Part shown: positions 4,543-11,043 of the stretch, one piece after another | Numbering within the stretch: the stretch's first letter is position 1 | How the letters are laid out: every line of letters begins with the position of its first letter | Assembly: GCA_030827165.1 (NCBI GenBank) | Contig: JAURFB010000003.1 | Location: 1 to 64,000, forward strand | Length of the DNA: 64,000 bases | Source: Marivivens sp. | GTDB lineage: Bacteria; Pseudomonadota; Alphaproteobacteria; Rhodobacterales; Rhodobacteraceae | Direction: 5' to 3' | The notes under the pieces: model-generated | Told to the model about the DNA's origin: nothing | Database searches by the model: none | The model's input: only the letters and a program-made list of their open reading frames with translations | Program-made: the position numbers and the translations under genes

Positions 4543-5462
4543 TGGCCGTGATCTATGACCGCGTCGCCCTGATCGGCCTTGGCCTGATCGCCGGCTCGAT
4601 GTCGCTTGCCATGCGCCGCGACGGGCTTGCCACGGAGGTTGTCGGCTATGCCCGTTCGGCCGAAACCCGCGCGACGGCCCGCGAGATCGCTCTTGTCGAT
4701 CGCGTCTGCGATACGCTGGCCGAGGCTGTGAAAGGCGCTGACCTCGTGGTTCTTGCCGTTCCGGTGGGCGCGATGGAGGCGGTGGCTGCGGAAATGGCGC
4801 CGTTCCTCAAGCCCGGCGCGACGGTGAGCGATGTGGGCTCCGTCAAGGGCGCGGTGATCGCAACCGTCGGTCCGCATATCCCAGAGGGCGTCAATTTCAT
4901 TCCGGCGCACCCGCTGGCGGGCACCGAACATTCCGGGCCGCGCTCGGGCTTTGCCGAGCTCTTTGAGAACCGCTGGACCATCCTCATTCCCAGCGGGGCC
5001 AAGCCGGACGAAGTGGCAAAGCTTCGCGCGCTTTGGGAGGGCATGGGCGCCAATGTCGACGAGATGGACGCCGATCACCACGATCTTGTCCTCGCGGTCA
5101 CCAGTCATACGCCGCACCTTATCGCCTATACGATGGTGGGTGTGGCCGACGATCTGCGCCGCGTGACCGATAGCGAGGTTATCAAATACTCCGCCGCCGG
5201 TTTCCGCGATTTCACGCGGATCGCCGCCTCGGACCCGACCATGTGGCGCGACGTTTTCCTGAACAACAAGGACGCGACGCTGGAAATTCTTGGCCGCTTC
5301 ACCGAAGAGCTTTTCGCGCTCCAGCGGGCGATCCGCACCGGCGATGGCGATCACCTGCACGCCTATTTCACCCGCACCCGTGCGATCCGTCGCGGGATCA
5401 TCGAAGCTGGTCAGGATACCGCCGCGCCCAACTTTGGCCGGGTGGCAGAGAAGAAGACCTAG
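4542..5462 (+). CDS. tyrA: Prephenate/arogenate dehydrogenase
   Basis: NAD(P)-dependent oxidative decarboxylation step leading to tyrosine, of the TyrC/cyclohexadienyl dehydrogenase type. The 306 residues open with the dinucleotide motif VALIGLGLIAGSMSLAMRR. The substrate-site motif HPLAGTEHSGP follows near residue 126. No chorismate mutase or ACT domain is fused. It is coupled to hisC, an arrangement that pairs the dehydrogenase with the aromatic/histidinol aminotransferase. Its stop overlaps the convergent DUF2125 gene's stop by four bases. Confidence 0.93.
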   Translation: MAVIYDRVALIGLGLIAGSMSLAMRRDGLATEVVGYARSAETRATAREIALVDRVCDTLAEAVKGADLVVLAVPVGAMEAVAAEMAPFLKPGATVSDVGSVKGAVIATVGPHIPEGVNFIPAHPLAGTEHSGPRSGFAELFENRWTILIPSGAKPDEVAKLRALWEGMGANVDEMDADHHDLVLAVTSHTPHLIAYTMVGVADDLRRVTDSEVIKYSAAGFRDFTRIAASDPTMWRDVFLNNKDATLEILGRFTEELFALQRAIRTGDGDHLHAYFTRTRAIRRGIIEAGQDTAAPNFGRVAEKKT

Positions 5463-6445
5463 AACGCCGGCAAAGAGGCGATGGGGAACATCCCGAGCCA
5501 GACCTGACCGCGATCGACCGTCAGCGGAACGTCGACCGTATTGGCCCCTTGTGCGAGGCTTGCGCCGACCGAGCGCCATGTCGCTTCATCTGCCGGATGG
5601 ATGAGGCCGGCGTTGACGCCGAGGCTGACCATCTGGTCCCAGCCCGTCACCGCAAGTTGGAGTTTGCCCGAGAGTTGGCCATCGGCGTCAATGTCGAGGT
5701 TGCCGCTCATTGCCAGAACCATGTCACCCCAGACGAGCCGCACATCGCGATAGCCCATGGTGGTGAGTATCGGGCCCGAGCCCGCAAGAGCCGCTGTATC
5801 AAGCGGGCGGTCGAAAGTCAGGGTGCTGTCGAATTTGGCAAGGTTGATCGCCGCAGGCATCGACCCGGCGGGATCAAGCCGTTCGCGCAGCTCCAGCGGC
5901 AGGACGAGCCCGTGGGTGTCGAAATAGGCATCATAGGTCTGATGGGTGTCCGATGCGGGGCGCAGGGCCAGAAGGCCCCGGTCGCTCGAAGCGGCCCAGC
6001 CCGCGTCGGACTGGAGGGCAACGGCGCCGACTTCTGCTGTCACCGTATCGAGCGCTGGCGCGGTGCCGAGGGTGACGGACGCGGAAGCGCGCAGACGCTC
6101 GGAACTGACCGAGATCGTCCGTCCAGCGATCATCAGGCGCTGATCTTCGGGCCAGACGGCGATGATCTTGTGCGGCTGATAGCTGAGGGCGAGAATTTGG
6201 AATATTGGCGTTTGCCAGCCGTATGTTCCGCTGGGATCGGTCAGATCGAGACCGGTGACGATTGTATCAAAGCGCGAGGGGAACCCGTGGGTTTCGAGGC
6301 TTTCATAGCCGACCTGCCAGCCGTTGTCGGAAAGCTGTTCGAGAAACGCTACCCCCTGTTTCTCGACCGCCATCCGCCCGACAACCCAGTATCCGCCCCA
6401 AAGGGCGGCCAGAGCGAAGGTCACAATGATCAGAATGCGCATCAT
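5459..6445 (-). CDS. DUF2125 envelope protein
   Basis: Protein of about 328 residues of the alphaproteobacterial DUF2125 family, function unknown. Starting at the MMRILIIV methionines, it has one N-terminal hydrophobic segment (IIVTFALAALWGGYWVVG) that reads as a signal anchor. It continues with a beta-rich periplasmic body (GWQVGYESLETHGFPSRFD, then LDLTDPSGTYGWQTP). A longer frame reaches 6484, but those extra codons lie before the membrane segment and look non-coding. It is divergent from the cyclotransferase gene with a 62-nt gap. Confidence 0.8.
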   Translation of the reverse strand: MMRILIIVTFALAALWGGYWVVGRMAVEKQGVAFLEQLSDNGWQVGYESLETHGFPSRFDTIVTGLDLTDPSGTYGWQTPIFQILALSYQPHKIIAVWPEDQRLMIAGRTISVSSERLRASASVTLGTAPALDTVTAEVGAVALQSDAGWAASSDRGLLALRPASDTHQTYDAYFDTHGLVLPLELRERLDPAGSMPAAINLAKFDSTLTFDRPLDTAALAGSGPILTTMGYRDVRLVWGDMVLAMSGNLDIDADGQLSGKLQLAVTGWDQMVSLGVNAGLIHPADEATWRSVGASLAQGANTVDVPLTVDRGQVWLGMFPIASLPAF

Positions 6446-6507
6446 GGGGGGTTTCCCGGCGGTTTCGAACCGCGTTATAGGCAAGCGGCAATGCGAGGGC
6501 CAGCATC

Positions 6508-7035
6508 ATGCCGCTGTGGATATTCGGCTATGGATCACTTCTGTGGCATCCCGGTTTCGAACCGGCCGAGCGGATCCGCGCGCGGCTTGCGGGCTATCAC
6601 CGCAGCTTTTGCATGTTGTCGATCCATCATCGGGGAACTGTCGATAAGCCCGGCCTCGTGCTTGCGCTCGACCATGTGGCCGGTGGTTCTTGCGAGGGGC
6701 TGGCGCTTGGAGTGAAAGAGGGTGAGGAGGATGCCGTTCTTGCCTATCTGCGCAAGCGCGAGCTGATTTCTTCGGCCTATATTGAGGAAACCGTGATCCT
6801 CGATCTGGCCGATGGCCGCTCTGTCGAGGCGGTGGCCTATGTGATCGACCCCAAGCACGAACAATACTGCCAGTTCGTCCTAGAAGAGCAGGCGCAGCGC
6901 ATCGCCGGCGCGGTCGGCGGGCGGGGGCCGAACCCCGAATACCTGTTCAACACGGCCGACCATCTGGCCGAGCTGGGCATCCATGATCCCGACCTGACGT
7001 GGCTTTGTGGCCGCGTCCGTGAACTGACCGCCTGA
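6508..7035 (+). CDS. ChaC-like gamma-glutamylcyclotransferase
   Basis: Probable glutathione-specific gamma-glutamylcyclotransferase releasing 5-oxoproline and Cys-Gly. The 175-residue product starts with the substrate-binding loop IFGYGSLLWHPGF typical of ChaC. It retains the mid-protein acidic region containing YLRKRELISSAYIEE, whose Glu residues include the expected general base, and ends in the ChaC-type GGRGPNPEYLFNT segment. No operon partner is evident; the next gene starts 78 nt downstream. Confidence 0.88.
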   Translation: MPLWIFGYGSLLWHPGFEPAERIRARLAGYHRSFCMLSIHHRGTVDKPGLVLALDHVAGGSCEGLALGVKEGEEDAVLAYLRKRELISSAYIEETVILDLADGRSVEAVAYVIDPKHEQYCQFVLEEQAQRIAGAVGGRGPNPEYLFNTADHLAELGIHDPDLTWLCGRVRELTA

Positions 7036-7113: not shown

Positions 7114-8286
7114 TTGACGGACATCAGGGAGCCCGAGGCCGAGTCGTTTTTTTCGCGTCCTTTGCGCCAGATTACCTCGATGCTGATTGCGCTCGGCCTG
7201 ATTGCGGCCGGAGCCTATATCGGCTTTCCAACGCTCGACGCGATCTTCTGGTCCAACCCCTATCTCAACGGGTTGATCCTTGCCGTGTTCTTCCTCGGCA
7301 TCCTGTCGTGTTTCGGTCAGGTTATTCAGCTGATGTATTCGGTCCAGTGGATCGAGGCCTTTTCCCGCACGCAAAGCGGCGAAAAGCCACCCTCGCTTCT
7401 GGCGCCGCTCGCCACGCTTTTGCGCACGCGCGGGGCGCGGATGCACTTGTCGCAAAGTTCGTCGCGGTCGATTCTGGATTCCGTGGCGAGCCGGATCGAC
7501 GAGGACCGCGAGATCACCCGCTATCTTGGCAGCACGCTGATTTTCCTCGGCCTTCTTGGCACATTCTATGGCCTTGCCACGACGGTCCCGGCGCTTGTCG
7601 ATACGATCCGCTCGCTGACGCCCAAGGACGGCGAAACCGGTGCCGAGGTGTTTGGCCGCCTTCAGGCTGGCCTTGAGGCGCAGCTTGGCGGCATGGGAAC
7701 GGCATTTTCCTCATCGCTCCTTGGCCTTGCCGGTTCCCTGATCGTCGGCCTGCTGGAGCTTTTCGCCGGCCACGGCCAGAACCGCTTCTATCGAGAGCTT
7801 GAGGAATGGCTTTCCTCGATCACCCGTCTTGGATTTTCCAGCGGCGATGACCTTGCCAGCGCCGGAGAAGGCGGCGACGCTTCGGGCGTTGTCGCGCTTC
7901 TGGCCGAACAGCTTGAAGCCATGCAGATGACCTTCACCCAAACCGACATCAACCGCTCTCAGGCCGACGACCGGATGAGCGACCTGATTGGCGCGGTAAA
8001 CAGGCTGGCCGGTCAGCTTGAAGAGGGCGGCGCGAAAGAAGCGATGCTGAAGATCGCCGAGGGGCAGAAAGAGCTGATCGACCAATTGGCAAGCAGCGGG
8101 GTCGACGGCCTCGATGCCGAAAGCCGGATGCGCCTGAGGTCGATCGATGTGCAGCTCCTCCGCATCCTAGAAGAGCTTTCAGTGGGACGGCAAGAAACGC
8201 TCAGCGATCTGCGCGGCGATATTGCCGGGCTGACGCGCGCGCTGAGGCAAGGGCGCGGGCGGCCCGACAGCGCCGGCCGGAGCTGA
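7114..8286 (+). CDS. MotA/TolQ/ExbB-type proton-channel subunit
   Basis: Inner-membrane protein of 390 residues. It has predicted membrane helices near residues 20-45, 58-80, 148-170 and 198-220. It carries the ExbB/MotA signature region (TRYLGSTLIFLGLLGTFYGLA, then GGMGTAFSSSLLGLAGSLIVG). A cytoplasmic tail of about 150 residues rich in Glu, Gln and Leu follows. TTG is the likely start, with AGGAAC upstream. The partner gene begins two bases after the stop, so the two surely form one complex. By family knowledge such pairs convert ion flow into movement or force on a periplasm-spanning partner. Confidence 0.87.
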   Translation: MTDIREPEAESFFSRPLRQITSMLIALGLIAAGAYIGFPTLDAIFWSNPYLNGLILAVFFLGILSCFGQVIQLMYSVQWIEAFSRTQSGEKPPSLLAPLATLLRTRGARMHLSQSSSRSILDSVASRIDEDREITRYLGSTLIFLGLLGTFYGLATTVPALVDTIRSLTPKDGETGAEVFGRLQAGLEAQLGGMGTAFSSSLLGLAGSLIVGLLELFAGHGQNRFYRELEEWLSSITRLGFSSGDDLASAGEGGDASGVVALLAEQLEAMQMTFTQTDINRSQADDRMSDLIGAVNRLAGQLEEGGAKEAMLKIAEGQKELIDQLASSGVDGLDAESRMRLRSIDVQLLRILEELSVGRQETLSDLRGDIAGLTRALRQGRGRPDSAGRS

Positions 8287-8288
8287 CG

Positions 8289-10469
8289 ATGGCGCTGAGC
8301 CGCAAGGGCGCCAGCCGGTTCGAGGCCAACACCTGGCCCGGATTCGTCGATGCGATGACGGGGCTACTTCTGGTTCTGATGTTCGTCCTGACCATCTTCA
8401 TGGTCATTCAGTTCGTGCTGCGCGAAACAATTACAGGGCAGGAATCCAAGTTGAGCCAGCTCACCGCTGAAATCAGCGCCCTGACCGAGGCCTTGGGCCT
8501 TGAGCGCGACCGCTCGTCGGCACTGGCGGGGCAGGTGGGAAGCCTGACCTCGTCCCTCAGCGACCTGACCGACCAGAGCAGCGCGCAGGCGGCACTTATC
8601 GCCGCCTTGACCATCGAGCGCGATGCGCAGGCGATTGCCCTGGCCGAGGCCGAGAATAGGATTACGGGCTTTGAGGCGCAGGTTGCGGGGCTTCTGGCCC
8701 AACGCGCCGACCTGCGCGATCAAGTGGCGGGGCTTGAAGCCGATCAGGCACGGATGTTTGACGAGCAAGAGGCGCTGAACCTTGCTTTGGCCCAGGCGCG
8801 TGACGAGATCGACGCCACCGCCGAAGCGGCGCGCCTTGCCGCCGCGCGGCGCGAGGCGCTTGAAGCGCTGCTGGCCGATCTGAATGCCGCGTCGGACTCT
8901 GACGCCGAAAAGATCTCTGAGCTTGAGGCCGCGGCCCTTGCCGATGCCGCCGCCGCCGAGGCGCTGCGCCAGCGTCTTGCCGATGCCGATGCCGAACTGA
9001 CCGCGATGACCCTTGCCCTTGATGCGCAGCGCAAGAAAGCCGAGGATACGCTGACCCTTCTGGCCGCCGCCGAGGCAGCGAAGGACAACCTCGACATCAA
9101 CCTCGCCAACGCGATCCTTGCCCAACAGCAGGCCGAGGCAGAGCTTGAGCGGCTCAAGACCGACAGCGGCGATCTCGATGCGCGGCTGGCGGCGGCGCTC
9201 TCGCTTCAAGATGCCACCGAGGCGCAGCTTGAACAGGCGCGTGCCGCACTTGCGGCAGCGGAATCGAGCAATCAGGATCTGACCGTGCGCCTCGCCGCAG
9301 CCATCGCTGCCCATGACGATGCCTCCTCTAGCCTCGATATAGTGCAGGCTGCGCTCGACAAGGCGCTCGAAGACGGGCGCCTGAGCGAAGCCGATCTGCA
9401 AAGCCGCCTTGCCGCCGCTCTCCTCGCGAAAGAAGCGCTGGCGCAGGAGCTTGCGGCAACGGCCGCCGCCGGGGATCAGGCCGATGAAGACCGGCAAACG
9501 CTTGAGGAGCGCCTCGCCGAGGCGCTTATGGCGCGACAGGCGCTTGAGGCGCAGGTGGCCTCGCTATCGCAGTCGAGCGACGAGAGAGCGCAAGATCGCG
9601 CCGACCTTGAAGGGCGGCTTGCCGAGGCGCTGGCGGCCATTGCCGCCGCCAAGGCCGATGCGACCGAGATGATGTCAGAGCGCGAGCGGCAGGCGGCCCT
9701 TCTGGCGCAGGCCAACATAGAACTTTCGGCCGAGCAGGCGCTTTCTGCCGAAGGCCAGCGCCAGGTCGCGCTTCTCAATGAGCAAGTCGTCGAGCTGCGT
9801 CGCCAGATCGCCACCTTGCAGGCGCTTCTCGACATCGCTTATCAGGCCGATGCAGAGGCCAAGGTCCAGATTGAATCGCTCGGCGCCCAGCTCAACACCG
9901 CGCTGGCCCGCGTCGCCAGCGAAGAGCGGCAGAGGCGCGCGCTCGAAGAGGCCGAACGCATCCGCCTCGAGGCCGAAAAGGCGCAGCTTGAGGCGCAAGC
10001 CCGCGATCTTGAAAGCTATAAATCCGAGTTCTTTGGCGAGATGCGCAACATCCTTGCCGGGCAGGAAGGCATCCGCATCGAGGGCGACCGGTTTGTCTTT
10101 TCCTCCGAGGTTCTCTTCGAAAGCGCGAGCGCCGACCTCTCGCCGGAGGGCAGGGCCGAAATCGCCAAGGTCGCCGCCCTCTTGCGCGGCGTCGTCGACA
10201 AGATCCCCTCCAACATCGACTGGATCATCCGCGTCGATGGCCATACCGACAACGTGCCGCTTTCGGGTGGCGGGCTTTACCGCAACAATTGGGAACTGAG
10301 CCAGGCGCGGGCGCTTTCGGTGGTCGTGTTCATGATCGACGAAGAAGGAATTTCGCCGCTGCATCTGTCGGCCAACGGCTTTGGCGAATACCAGCCGATC
10401 AACTCCGACGACACGCCTGAGGCACGGGCCCAGAACCGACGGATCGAACTCAAGCTCACCGAGCGATGA
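8289..10469 (+). CDS. MotB/OmpA-like peptidoglycan-binding protein with giant coiled coil
   Basis: 726 residues. A short cytoplasmic N-terminus leads to a single membrane helix (about residues 19-45, FVDAMTGLLLVLMF onwards). An almost uninterrupted Ala/Leu/Glu-rich coiled coil runs from about residue 50 to 580. A C-terminal OmpA/MotB-type domain follows, with the peptidoglycan-binding signature GHTDNVPL and NNWELSQARALSV, ending in QNRRIELKL. Within the coil, units with the pattern DLxxRLAxAL recur at residues 295, 330, 369, 404 and 439, mostly 35 apart. The ExbB-like gene is directly upstream. Genes of this type are annotated in Rhodobacterales as peptidoglycan-binding proteins; the biological role is not established. 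Confidence 0.88.
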   Translation: MALSRKGASRFEANTWPGFVDAMTGLLLVLMFVLTIFMVIQFVLRETITGQESKLSQLTAEISALTEALGLERDRSSALAGQVGSLTSSLSDLTDQSSAQAALIAALTIERDAQAIALAEAENRITGFEAQVAGLLAQRADLRDQVAGLEADQARMFDEQEALNLALAQARDEIDATAEAARLAAARREALEALLADLNAASDSDAEKISELEAAALADAAAAEALRQRLADADAELTAMTLALDAQRKKAEDTLTLLAAAEAAKDNLDINLANAILAQQQAEAELERLKTDSGDLDARLAAALSLQDATEAQLEQARAALAAAESSNQDLTVRLAAAIAAHDDASSSLDIVQAALDKALEDGRLSEADLQSRLAAALLAKEALAQELAATAAAGDQADEDRQTLEERLAEALMARQALEAQVASLSQSSDERAQDRADLEGRLAEALAAIAAAKADATEMMSERERQAALLAQANIELSAEQALSAEGQRQVALLNEQVVELRRQIATLQALLDIAYQADAEAKVQIESLGAQLNTALARVASEERQRRALEEAERIRLEAEKAQLEAQARDLESYKSEFFGEMRNILAGQEGIRIEGDRFVFSSEVLFESASADLSPEGRAEIAKVAALLRGVVDKIPSNIDWIIRVDGHTDNVPLSGGGLYRNNWELSQARALSVVVFMIDEEGISPLHLSANGFGEYQPINSDDTPEARAQNRRIELKLTER
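9171..9707 (+). repeat. In-gene 105-nt repeat encoding 35-residue coiled-coil units
   Basis: Repeat units begin at 9171, 9276, 9393, 9498 and 9603, spaced 105, 117, 105 and 105 nt. Each begins with codons for the pattern [D/T]L-x-x-RLAxAL. A looser copy (NLDINLANAIL) precedes them at about 9087. Thirty-five residues equal five heptads, so the register of the coiled coil is preserved. Confidence 0.7.
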
Positions 10470-10550
10470 ATTTCGGTGCGTGAACGCACATCGGCCGTTG
10501 ATTTATTCCCAATTTCCAATCCCACGCACAAAGAGGAGAGTCTTCCCTTG

Positions 10551-10571
10551 CAAGCGGACGTTGTCTGCTTG
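10551..10571 (+). promoter_or_regulatory. Leader hairpin upstream of doxX
   Basis: CAAGCGGAC / GTCTGCTTG can form a 9-bp stem (one G-U pair) with a GTT loop, 32 nt before the doxX start. It is preceded by a purine-rich AAGAGGAGAG. It could be a leader control element or a partial terminator for the upstream pair; no T tract follows. Confidence 0.35.
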
Positions 10572-10602
10572 GGTATTTCGCCAAAGGGAAAAGGACAATT
10601 CG

Positions 10603-11043
10603 ATGACGGTACTTGCGAACAAACTGGGAGCGATTTCGGCACCTGCCGGGCGGGTGCTTCTGTCTCTCATCTTCATCATGGCGGGTCTGCAAAAGATTTC
10701 CGGCTATTCCGGCACTCAGGCCTATATGGAAGCGATGGGAGTTTCCGGCGGCCTTCTGCCCCTGGTTATCCTCGTTGAACTTGGCGGCGGCATCGCGTTG
10801 CTGCTGGGCTGGAAGGCGCGGGTGGCCGCTTTTGTTCTGGGCGGGTTCTCGGTGGTTTCGGGGGTGCTGTTTCACCTTGTTCCGGGGATTTCGATGGAAG
10901 GCATGGCAGCGCAGGCCGAGATCACCAGCTTTCTCAAGAACCTGACCATCGCCGGTGGCATGGGCATGGTTGTGACCTTTGGCGCAGGTCACTGGTCGTT
11001 GGACAACCGGCAACTGACCGGCGGCCGCGCGACCGCGGCCTGA
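10603..11043 (+). CDS. DoxX-family membrane protein
   Basis: A 146-residue DoxX-type integral membrane protein with four predicted helices: GRVLLSLIFIMAGLQKISG, LVILVELGGGIALLLGW, AAFVLGGFSVVSGVLFHL and IAGGMGMVVTFGAG. The motif FIMAGLQKISG near the first helix is typical of the family. The ATG start chosen here has AAAAGGAC upstream. The frame is open much further upstream, but that part overlaps the preceding gene and lacks similarity. DoxX relatives are often linked to redox or thiol stress, but the function here is not known. Confidence 0.87.
   Translation: MTVLANKLGAISAPAGRVLLSLIFIMAGLQKISGYSGTQAYMEAMGVSGGLLPLVILVELGGGIALLLGWKARVAAFVLGGFSVVSGVLFHLVPGISMEGMAAQAEITSFLKNLTIAGGMGMVVTFGAGHWSLDNRQLTGGRATAA

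Follow-up and report, generated by a model that had tools for sequence, protein, structure and literature searches.

A coiled coil longer than the periplasm is wide, and varying largely in whole heptads, in a MotB/OmpA-like protein of Rhodobacteraceae

How is a coiled coil two to three times as long as a typical periplasm is wide accommodated in a protein that ends in a peptidoglycan-binding domain? In models of wall-anchored motors the wall is gripped directly above the motor, and a nearly universal complex of the Rhodobacteraceae does not fit this picture easily. The question is raised here by a gene of Marivivens sp. in the window, meaning the whole stretch of 64,000 nucleotides (contig JAURFB010000003.1, positions 1 to 64,000) that was analysed. 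Its product, called the B subunit in the following, and the product of the gene in front of it, the partner A, resemble the two components of ion-driven motors, and the coil of the B subunit most probably runs along the envelope.

The interval of the coil gene is exactly one open reading frame of 726 codons plus a stop (Table 1). The N terminus of the B subunit is short and basic and is followed by a single transmembrane (TM) helix at about residues 20–42, the one hydrophobic segment in the hydropathy profile. The residues W16, P17, G18, F19, V20, D21, A22, M23, and T24 are invariant in 50 aligned relatives, and Asp21, lying within the TM helix, is presumed to be the proton-carrying residue. 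The C-terminal end matches the Pfam family OmpA (residues 609–717, E = 7e-18) and the solved structures of MotB and PomB with E-values down to 4e-18, the motifs GHTD, LS..RA, and NRR being aligned. The wall-binding motifs are invariant in the alignment of the relatives, and by these motifs the domain is predicted to be of the peptidoglycan-binding type. The sequence-only reading, which had called the protein MotB/OmpA-like, was right in this respect.

Table 1. Coordinates of the coil gene, its parts and its neighbours in the window
Feature	Position	Strand	Description or basis
B subunit gene, 726 aa	8289..10469	+	OmpA/MotB-type peptidoglycan-binding domain behind a short N terminus, a TM helix and a giant coil
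WPGFVDAM motif and TM helix, residues about 16–44	8334..8420	+	alignment, hydropathy
Coil, residues 46–572, 75 heptads	8424..10004	+	phase slips at residues 358 and 554
Central length-variable section, five degenerate units	9168..9704	+	variable alignment columns
OmpA/MotB-type domain, residues about 600–726	10086..10466	+	GHTDN, NW.LS..RA, NRR motifs
Partner A gene, 390 aa, product a membrane protein of the MotA/TolQ/ExbB/ZorA type	7114..8286	+	ends 2 nt before coil gene
ChaC and DUF2125 genes	5459..7035		upstream of motor pair
DoxX gene	10381..11043	+	directly downstream of coil gene

The protein belongs to the NCBIfam model NF006542 (PRK09039 'peptidoglycan -binding protein'), which it matches with 775 bits against a curated cut-off of 388 (E = 6.7e-233). 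The models NF006542 to NF006546 (PRK09039.1) describe the same family, in which the sister models of 342–350 positions represent short members. No function is described for the PRK09039 model, and the literature search found neither a functional study of PRK09039 nor a description of how long the coil is, of its quantisation or of the partner in this family. The family itself is already in the databases, and what is new is the long rod together with the whole-heptad rule of its length. The equivalog models for flagellar MotB were matched below their cut-offs (at best 95 bits vs. 283 for MotD and 88 vs. 300 for MotB), and an identity as flagellar MotB was therefore rejected. A Foldseek search with the AlphaFold2 model of the B subunit returned MotS, MotB, and PomB as well as ZorAB, with matches driven by the OmpA end, and the B subunit matches ZorB with E = 2e-22. 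The Rgs proteins of Sinorhizobium (PMC7327166) were considered as characterised homologues and rejected, as their described domains do not match.

The ExbB-like partner which had been postulated from the sequence was found in the TolQ/ExbB/ZorA-like gene 2 nt upstream. In 267 of 277 loci the partner gene is located directly upstream of the coil gene on the same strand. Partner A carries a cytoplasmic tail, helical and about 150 amino acids long, and matches the PADLOC model ZorA1 (E = 1.6e-8), while the match to the Pfam family MotA_ExbB is weak (17.2 bits, under the cut-off of 22.9). Its AlphaFold2 model has pLDDT values mostly above 90 across the membrane core (residues 20–240), and the Foldseek search with this model lists ExbB and TolQ on top and also ZorA and MotA (prob 1.0, best E 2e-3). 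VIA comparisons with TolQ, ExbB, and ZorA gave Z values of 11.8, 11.5, and 11.3; Z values of 11–12 can be reached by chance for helical models, and the top rows consistently belong to the TolQ/ExbB/ZorA family. A MotA/TolQ/ExbB fold is thus predicted for partner A. The window's own genome, which is 82% complete, contains a sole PF01618 match at E<=0.01, located at another locus (1.8e-36), which is taken to be TolQ. Because this strong match lies elsewhere, the coil gene and its partner constitute an additional motor and not TolQR. An apparently uncharacterised motor, besides the TolQ of the window's own genome, seems to be conserved across the Rhodobacteraceae, which are abundant in the sea.

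Parts of this pair are known from other systems. With MotAB and PomAB it shares the MotB-type OmpA domain, the aspartate in the TM helix and the tandem order of the A and B genes, but a 527-residue coil replaces the short plug-linker region. The Tol-Pal (TolQRA) and Ton systems have the TolQ/ExbB-like component in common with it, and domain II of TolA, with 110–335 residues in proteobacteria (PMC12204202), is also long and often helical. In contrast to Tol-Pal, the OmpA domain is here fused to the B subunit of the motor itself, and the coil reaches up to 719 residues. The pair also resembles ZorAB of the Zorya system, where a wall-binding B subunit is combined with an A subunit with an extended helical tail, and for which mutants showed that the TM aspartate of ZorB, wall binding and the tail of ZorA are all required for function (PMC11890865). 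These parts occur here, too, except that Zorya has its long tail on the cytoplasmic side of A, whereas the very long rod is found here on the periplasmic B subunit, i.e., on the wall side. Membership in Zorya was rejected, as PADLOC found no ZorC-, ZorD- or ZorE-like effector among the ten neighbouring proteins and the pair is near-universal in the order.

The coil itself comprises 527 amino acids with 13 glycines and not a single proline, which corresponds to a straight length of 78.3 nm if 0.1485 nm are counted for each residue. From the sequence, a coil at about residues 50–580 and near 80 nm had been proposed, exceeding the periplasm; the measured values agree closely, and for the periplasm of Escherichia coli 30–36 nm were determined by tomography (PMC8824477). 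In the same study, the longest Lpp with which E. coli still grew nearly normally was extended by 21 residues (PMC8824477). The hydrophobic periodicity of the coil is 3.51 residues with a power of 31, the highest power among 500 shuffles being 13.5, and its heptads carry Leu, Ile, Val or Arg in a and Leu or Ala in d. The coil is strongly acidic with a net charge of -50 over its 527 residues, in which the SMC arms of the same genome differ. Family-wide, Cys is absent from the natural coils and only 9 prolines occur in 92,567 residues.

This excess length is general in the Rhodobacteraceae and not an oddity of one gene. NF006542 matches 195 of 196 genomes sampled from the order, with all 88 genera of the sample represented, and NF006543 matches 183 of 289 genomes in the class. 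Between fixed anchors, the 198 distinct Rhodobacteraceae coils measure 278–691 residues or 41–103 nm, so that no measured coil of this family fits upright into the 30–36 nm of the E. coli periplasm. Elsewhere in the class, 66 coils range from 107 to 719 residues and cluster at 131–191 residues (19–28 nm); among 40 further class loci, L265, L272, L276, and L282 remained unmeasured, with no match to the anchor motifs. The exact coil length of the window is kept in the nearest relatives at 89–90% identity (Rhodobacteraceae, Marivivens MAGs). The length of the partner is only weakly correlated with that of the coil (r = 0.36) and was rejected as its ruler.

Additionally, some individual members were noted. 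The two non-Rhodobacteraceae loci L269 and L270 encode coils of 691 and 719 residues with zero heptad interruptions, which are the longest found and among the most regular, and L270 is built of near-identical 28-residue units. In L272 (genome G210, contig C23) the family member lies in an open frame of 1276 amino acids, and L268 is a second family copy in the same genome. Strong short-form members with E-values of 1e-118 to 1e-130 were also found in five genomes labelled as belonging to the same phylum but lying outside the class (G539, G599, G614, G633, and G728), which means that the family is either not strictly alphaproteobacterial or was transferred.

The lengths of the coils are locked largely to whole heptads. 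A length of 7n+5 was found in 48 of the 66 non-Rhodobacteraceae coils, and the 132 distinct lengths deviate from uniformity for modulus 7 (p = 1.2e-15) and also for its multiple 14, but not for the moduli 3–6 and 8–13 (p>=0.7). As a control, the cytoplasmic tail of the partner is uniform modulo 7 (p~1), a comparison covering the Rhodobacteraceae, in the loci of which alone the tail anchor could be located. Independent close pairs gave 87 nonzero length differences, of which 30 are divisible by seven (p = 2e-6), and 310 gap runs, of which 151 are divisible by seven, including 90 of exactly seven residues. The rule is looser in the Rhodobacteraceae, where 68 of 198 coils are 7n+5 and the other residue classes are mostly +/-4. 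Chemoreceptors also show length classes in whole heptads, with coils of 12–32 paired heptads (PMC6628036), but these are hairpins with paired heptads, whereas single heptads are gained or lost here. A mod-14 rule was not seen among the coils (odd and even heptad numbers occur 28 vs. 28 times), and a paired-heptad hairpin of the chemoreceptor type was rejected for this reason. The quantisation could result partly from DNA slippage between heptad repeats, and such slippage may supply some of the length variants, which would then be filtered by selection for phase. Selection appears to preserve the continuity of the coil by way of whole-heptad indels and not a fixed length, and the whole-heptad rule would mean that an unbroken rod is more important than a rod of a given length.

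A repeat of 35 residues had also been reported for the coil. It does exist, as five DLxxRLAxAL-like units begin at residues 294, 329, 368, 403, and 438 and occupy about residues 294–472 in the central section, but they are degenerate and their spacings are 35, 39, 35, and 35. The best match at lag 35 scores 73, which none of 200 heptad-preserving shuffles equalled at this lag, while the best such shuffle over all lags scored 76. At the DNA level, no tandem array behind the repeat was found. Among relatives, RLAxAL is present in 0–5 copies, the number of which is only moderately correlated with coil length (r = 0.43). The autocorrelation of the family peaks at lag 28, which is strongest, and at lag 21. 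The repeat, though weak, is real, but it is secondary; as the unit governing length change it was rejected in favour of the 7-residue heptad.

The phase of the heptads was followed with a seven-state HMM. It was trained on 264 coils and thus on the same family to which it is applied, whereas the length statistics are independent of it. In this HMM, position a is occupied by Leu (39%), Ile (11%), Arg (11%), and Val (10%), position d by Leu (38%) and Ala (26%), e and g are charged, and b, c, and f contain 31–37% Ala. Inserts of 1–6 residues were noticed in 99–100% of the trials, inserts of seven in 1%. The HMM passed through 47 of the 48 coils of length 7n+5 without a phase jump, those of 691 and 719 residues included, and 51 of the 198 Rhodobacteraceae coils (278–600 amino acids) have no internal jump. 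The remaining ones contain few jumps, mostly of 3 or 4 residues, which are concentrated in the middle of the coil and towards its C-terminal end. In the 198 Rhodobacteraceae coils, Gly, Asn, Ser, and Asp are not enriched at the jump sites (0.161 vs. 0.156 in the background), and the jumps therefore look like stutters within a helix and not like loops. The arms of SMC proteins, known from other members to be antiparallel and interrupted, served for comparison. In the SMC arms of the window's own genome, the same HMM, fitted to the coil family, needs 0.9–1.2 jumps per 100 residues, two to three times as many per residue as the two jumps in the 527 residues of the window coil, and the arms contain 3–6 prolines each.

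In a parallel in-register homodimer, position g of one chain opposes position e' of the other at i+5. Opposite charges at g–e' are strongly enriched (z = 22 family-wide, a value inflated by related sequences, and z = 17 when each length is represented by a single sequence). The enrichment is also seen in every third of the Rhodobacteraceae coil taken separately, while other pairs of positions at i+5 gave z from -1.4 to 4.5. The window coil alone gave z = 0.6 with n = 74, where the test has no power. By established coiled-coil rules, Leu, Ile, Val or Arg in a and Leu or Ala in d are dimer-like. Together, the pattern of residues points to a parallel in-register dimer as the form of the family coil.

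From this it is probable that the pair forms an ion-driven motor of the 5:2 type, the B dimer of which is a continuous parallel coiled coil running from the membrane along the envelope to the wall. A pentamer of partner A would surround the dimer of B, and the two B chains would form one essentially continuous in-register coil between the membrane and the peptidoglycan-binding domains. A straight coil of about 78 nm (41–103 nm in the Rhodobacteraceae) cannot stand upright and therefore most likely runs along the envelope. It most likely leaves the motor near the conserved glycines Gly50 and Gly70 and then follows the envelope, so that the OmpA end would be attached to the wall at a distance of some tens of nanometres from the motor. 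The rod could either keep B fixed during the rotation of A or relay tension to the channel from the wall. The family, the motor-type partner, the Pro-free heptad coil, its heptad-locked length and the parallel charge pattern in the family are shown by computation. The stoichiometry, the proton flow, the lateral orientation, the direction of force and the physiological role are inferred here, and the near-universal presence of the pair argues for a housekeeping role. The sequence-only reading had left the choice between folding back, bundling, a lateral course and a wall contact made elsewhere. Of these, folding back through loops is disfavoured by the heptad-locked length, the loop-poor jumps, the single uncompensated heptad indels and the parallel charge pattern, and the lateral rod seems likeliest.

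The main rival for the window protein, although itself unlikely, is a jointed rod in which three or four stiff pieces (about residues 46–203, 213–362, 367–488, and 498–577; 12–23 nm each) fold back or zig-zag across the periplasm. It is suggested by the AlphaFold2 model, in which a helix extends over nearly all of residues 19–589 with breaks at 204–212, 363–366, and 489–497. Two of these breaks have pLDDT values under 50 and a continuous heptad phase, which speaks against joints there, while the third, in the middle, adjoins the stutter at residue 358, and most phase slips of the Rhodobacteraceae are located centrally or at the C-terminal end of the coil. The sequences at the breaks, e.g., EDGRLSEAD, resemble helix caps and could mark real joints. 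The model was calculated for a single chain of the presumed dimer from a 50-sequence alignment (mean pLDDT 72, pTM 0.32), and a monomer prediction for a presumed dimeric coil is not decisive. A compact bundle, which had been named as the outcome that would speak against an oversized coil, was not obtained, the confidence of the model being low, and its three breaks make the jointed version conceivable. Against joints in general speak the jump sites without an excess of loop residues, the conservation of total length modulo 7, which variable loops would not produce, the missing mod-14 rule and the existence of members with 579–719 uninterrupted residues.

Less probable than the jointed rod is an upright rod in a locally wide periplasm, such as at the pole, the septum or an envelope stalk, or one reaching to or through the outer membrane, with its length tracking a dimension of the envelope. 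The short members of 107–191 residues (16–28 nm) would indeed fit a normal periplasm in this way. However, close relatives can differ by tens of residues (470 vs. 348 amino acids with end domains of 94% identity), which is not ruler-like, and the end domain bears wall-binding motifs. Equally improbable is a higher-order bundling, in which the dimeric coils of several motors would pack via their Ala-rich outer faces into periplasmic filaments linking the motors: the Ala content of b, c, and f in the window coil, 36.6%, is high compared to 17.5–22.5% in SMC arms of the same genome, but the negative net charge would repel neighbouring coils and the Ala-rich surface may only reflect helix stability.

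With the laterally running coil as the preferred reading, a more general assumption can be made tentatively and with less certainty than for the single protein. The family may represent a widespread alphaproteobacterial class of motors which carry their wall anchor on a stiff in-plane rod that can reach about 100 nm and whose length evolves freely, but largely in whole heptads. Such a rod would make contact with the wall far from the motor and would serve as a lateral tether that resists torsion, or as a cable under tension.

Finally, the genes around the pair were compared between loci. In the Rhodobacteraceae, ChaC (176 of 180 loci), DUF2125 (154 of 180) and ClpA (132 of 180) are conserved neighbours, which give no clear functional clue. 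The ChaC and DUF2125 genes upstream of the motor pair were found in none of 36 loci elsewhere in the class. The DoxX gene downstream of the coil gene is without a match (E<=1) in the 180 Rhodobacteraceae loci compared, including two relatives at 89–90% identity, and looks like a local insertion.
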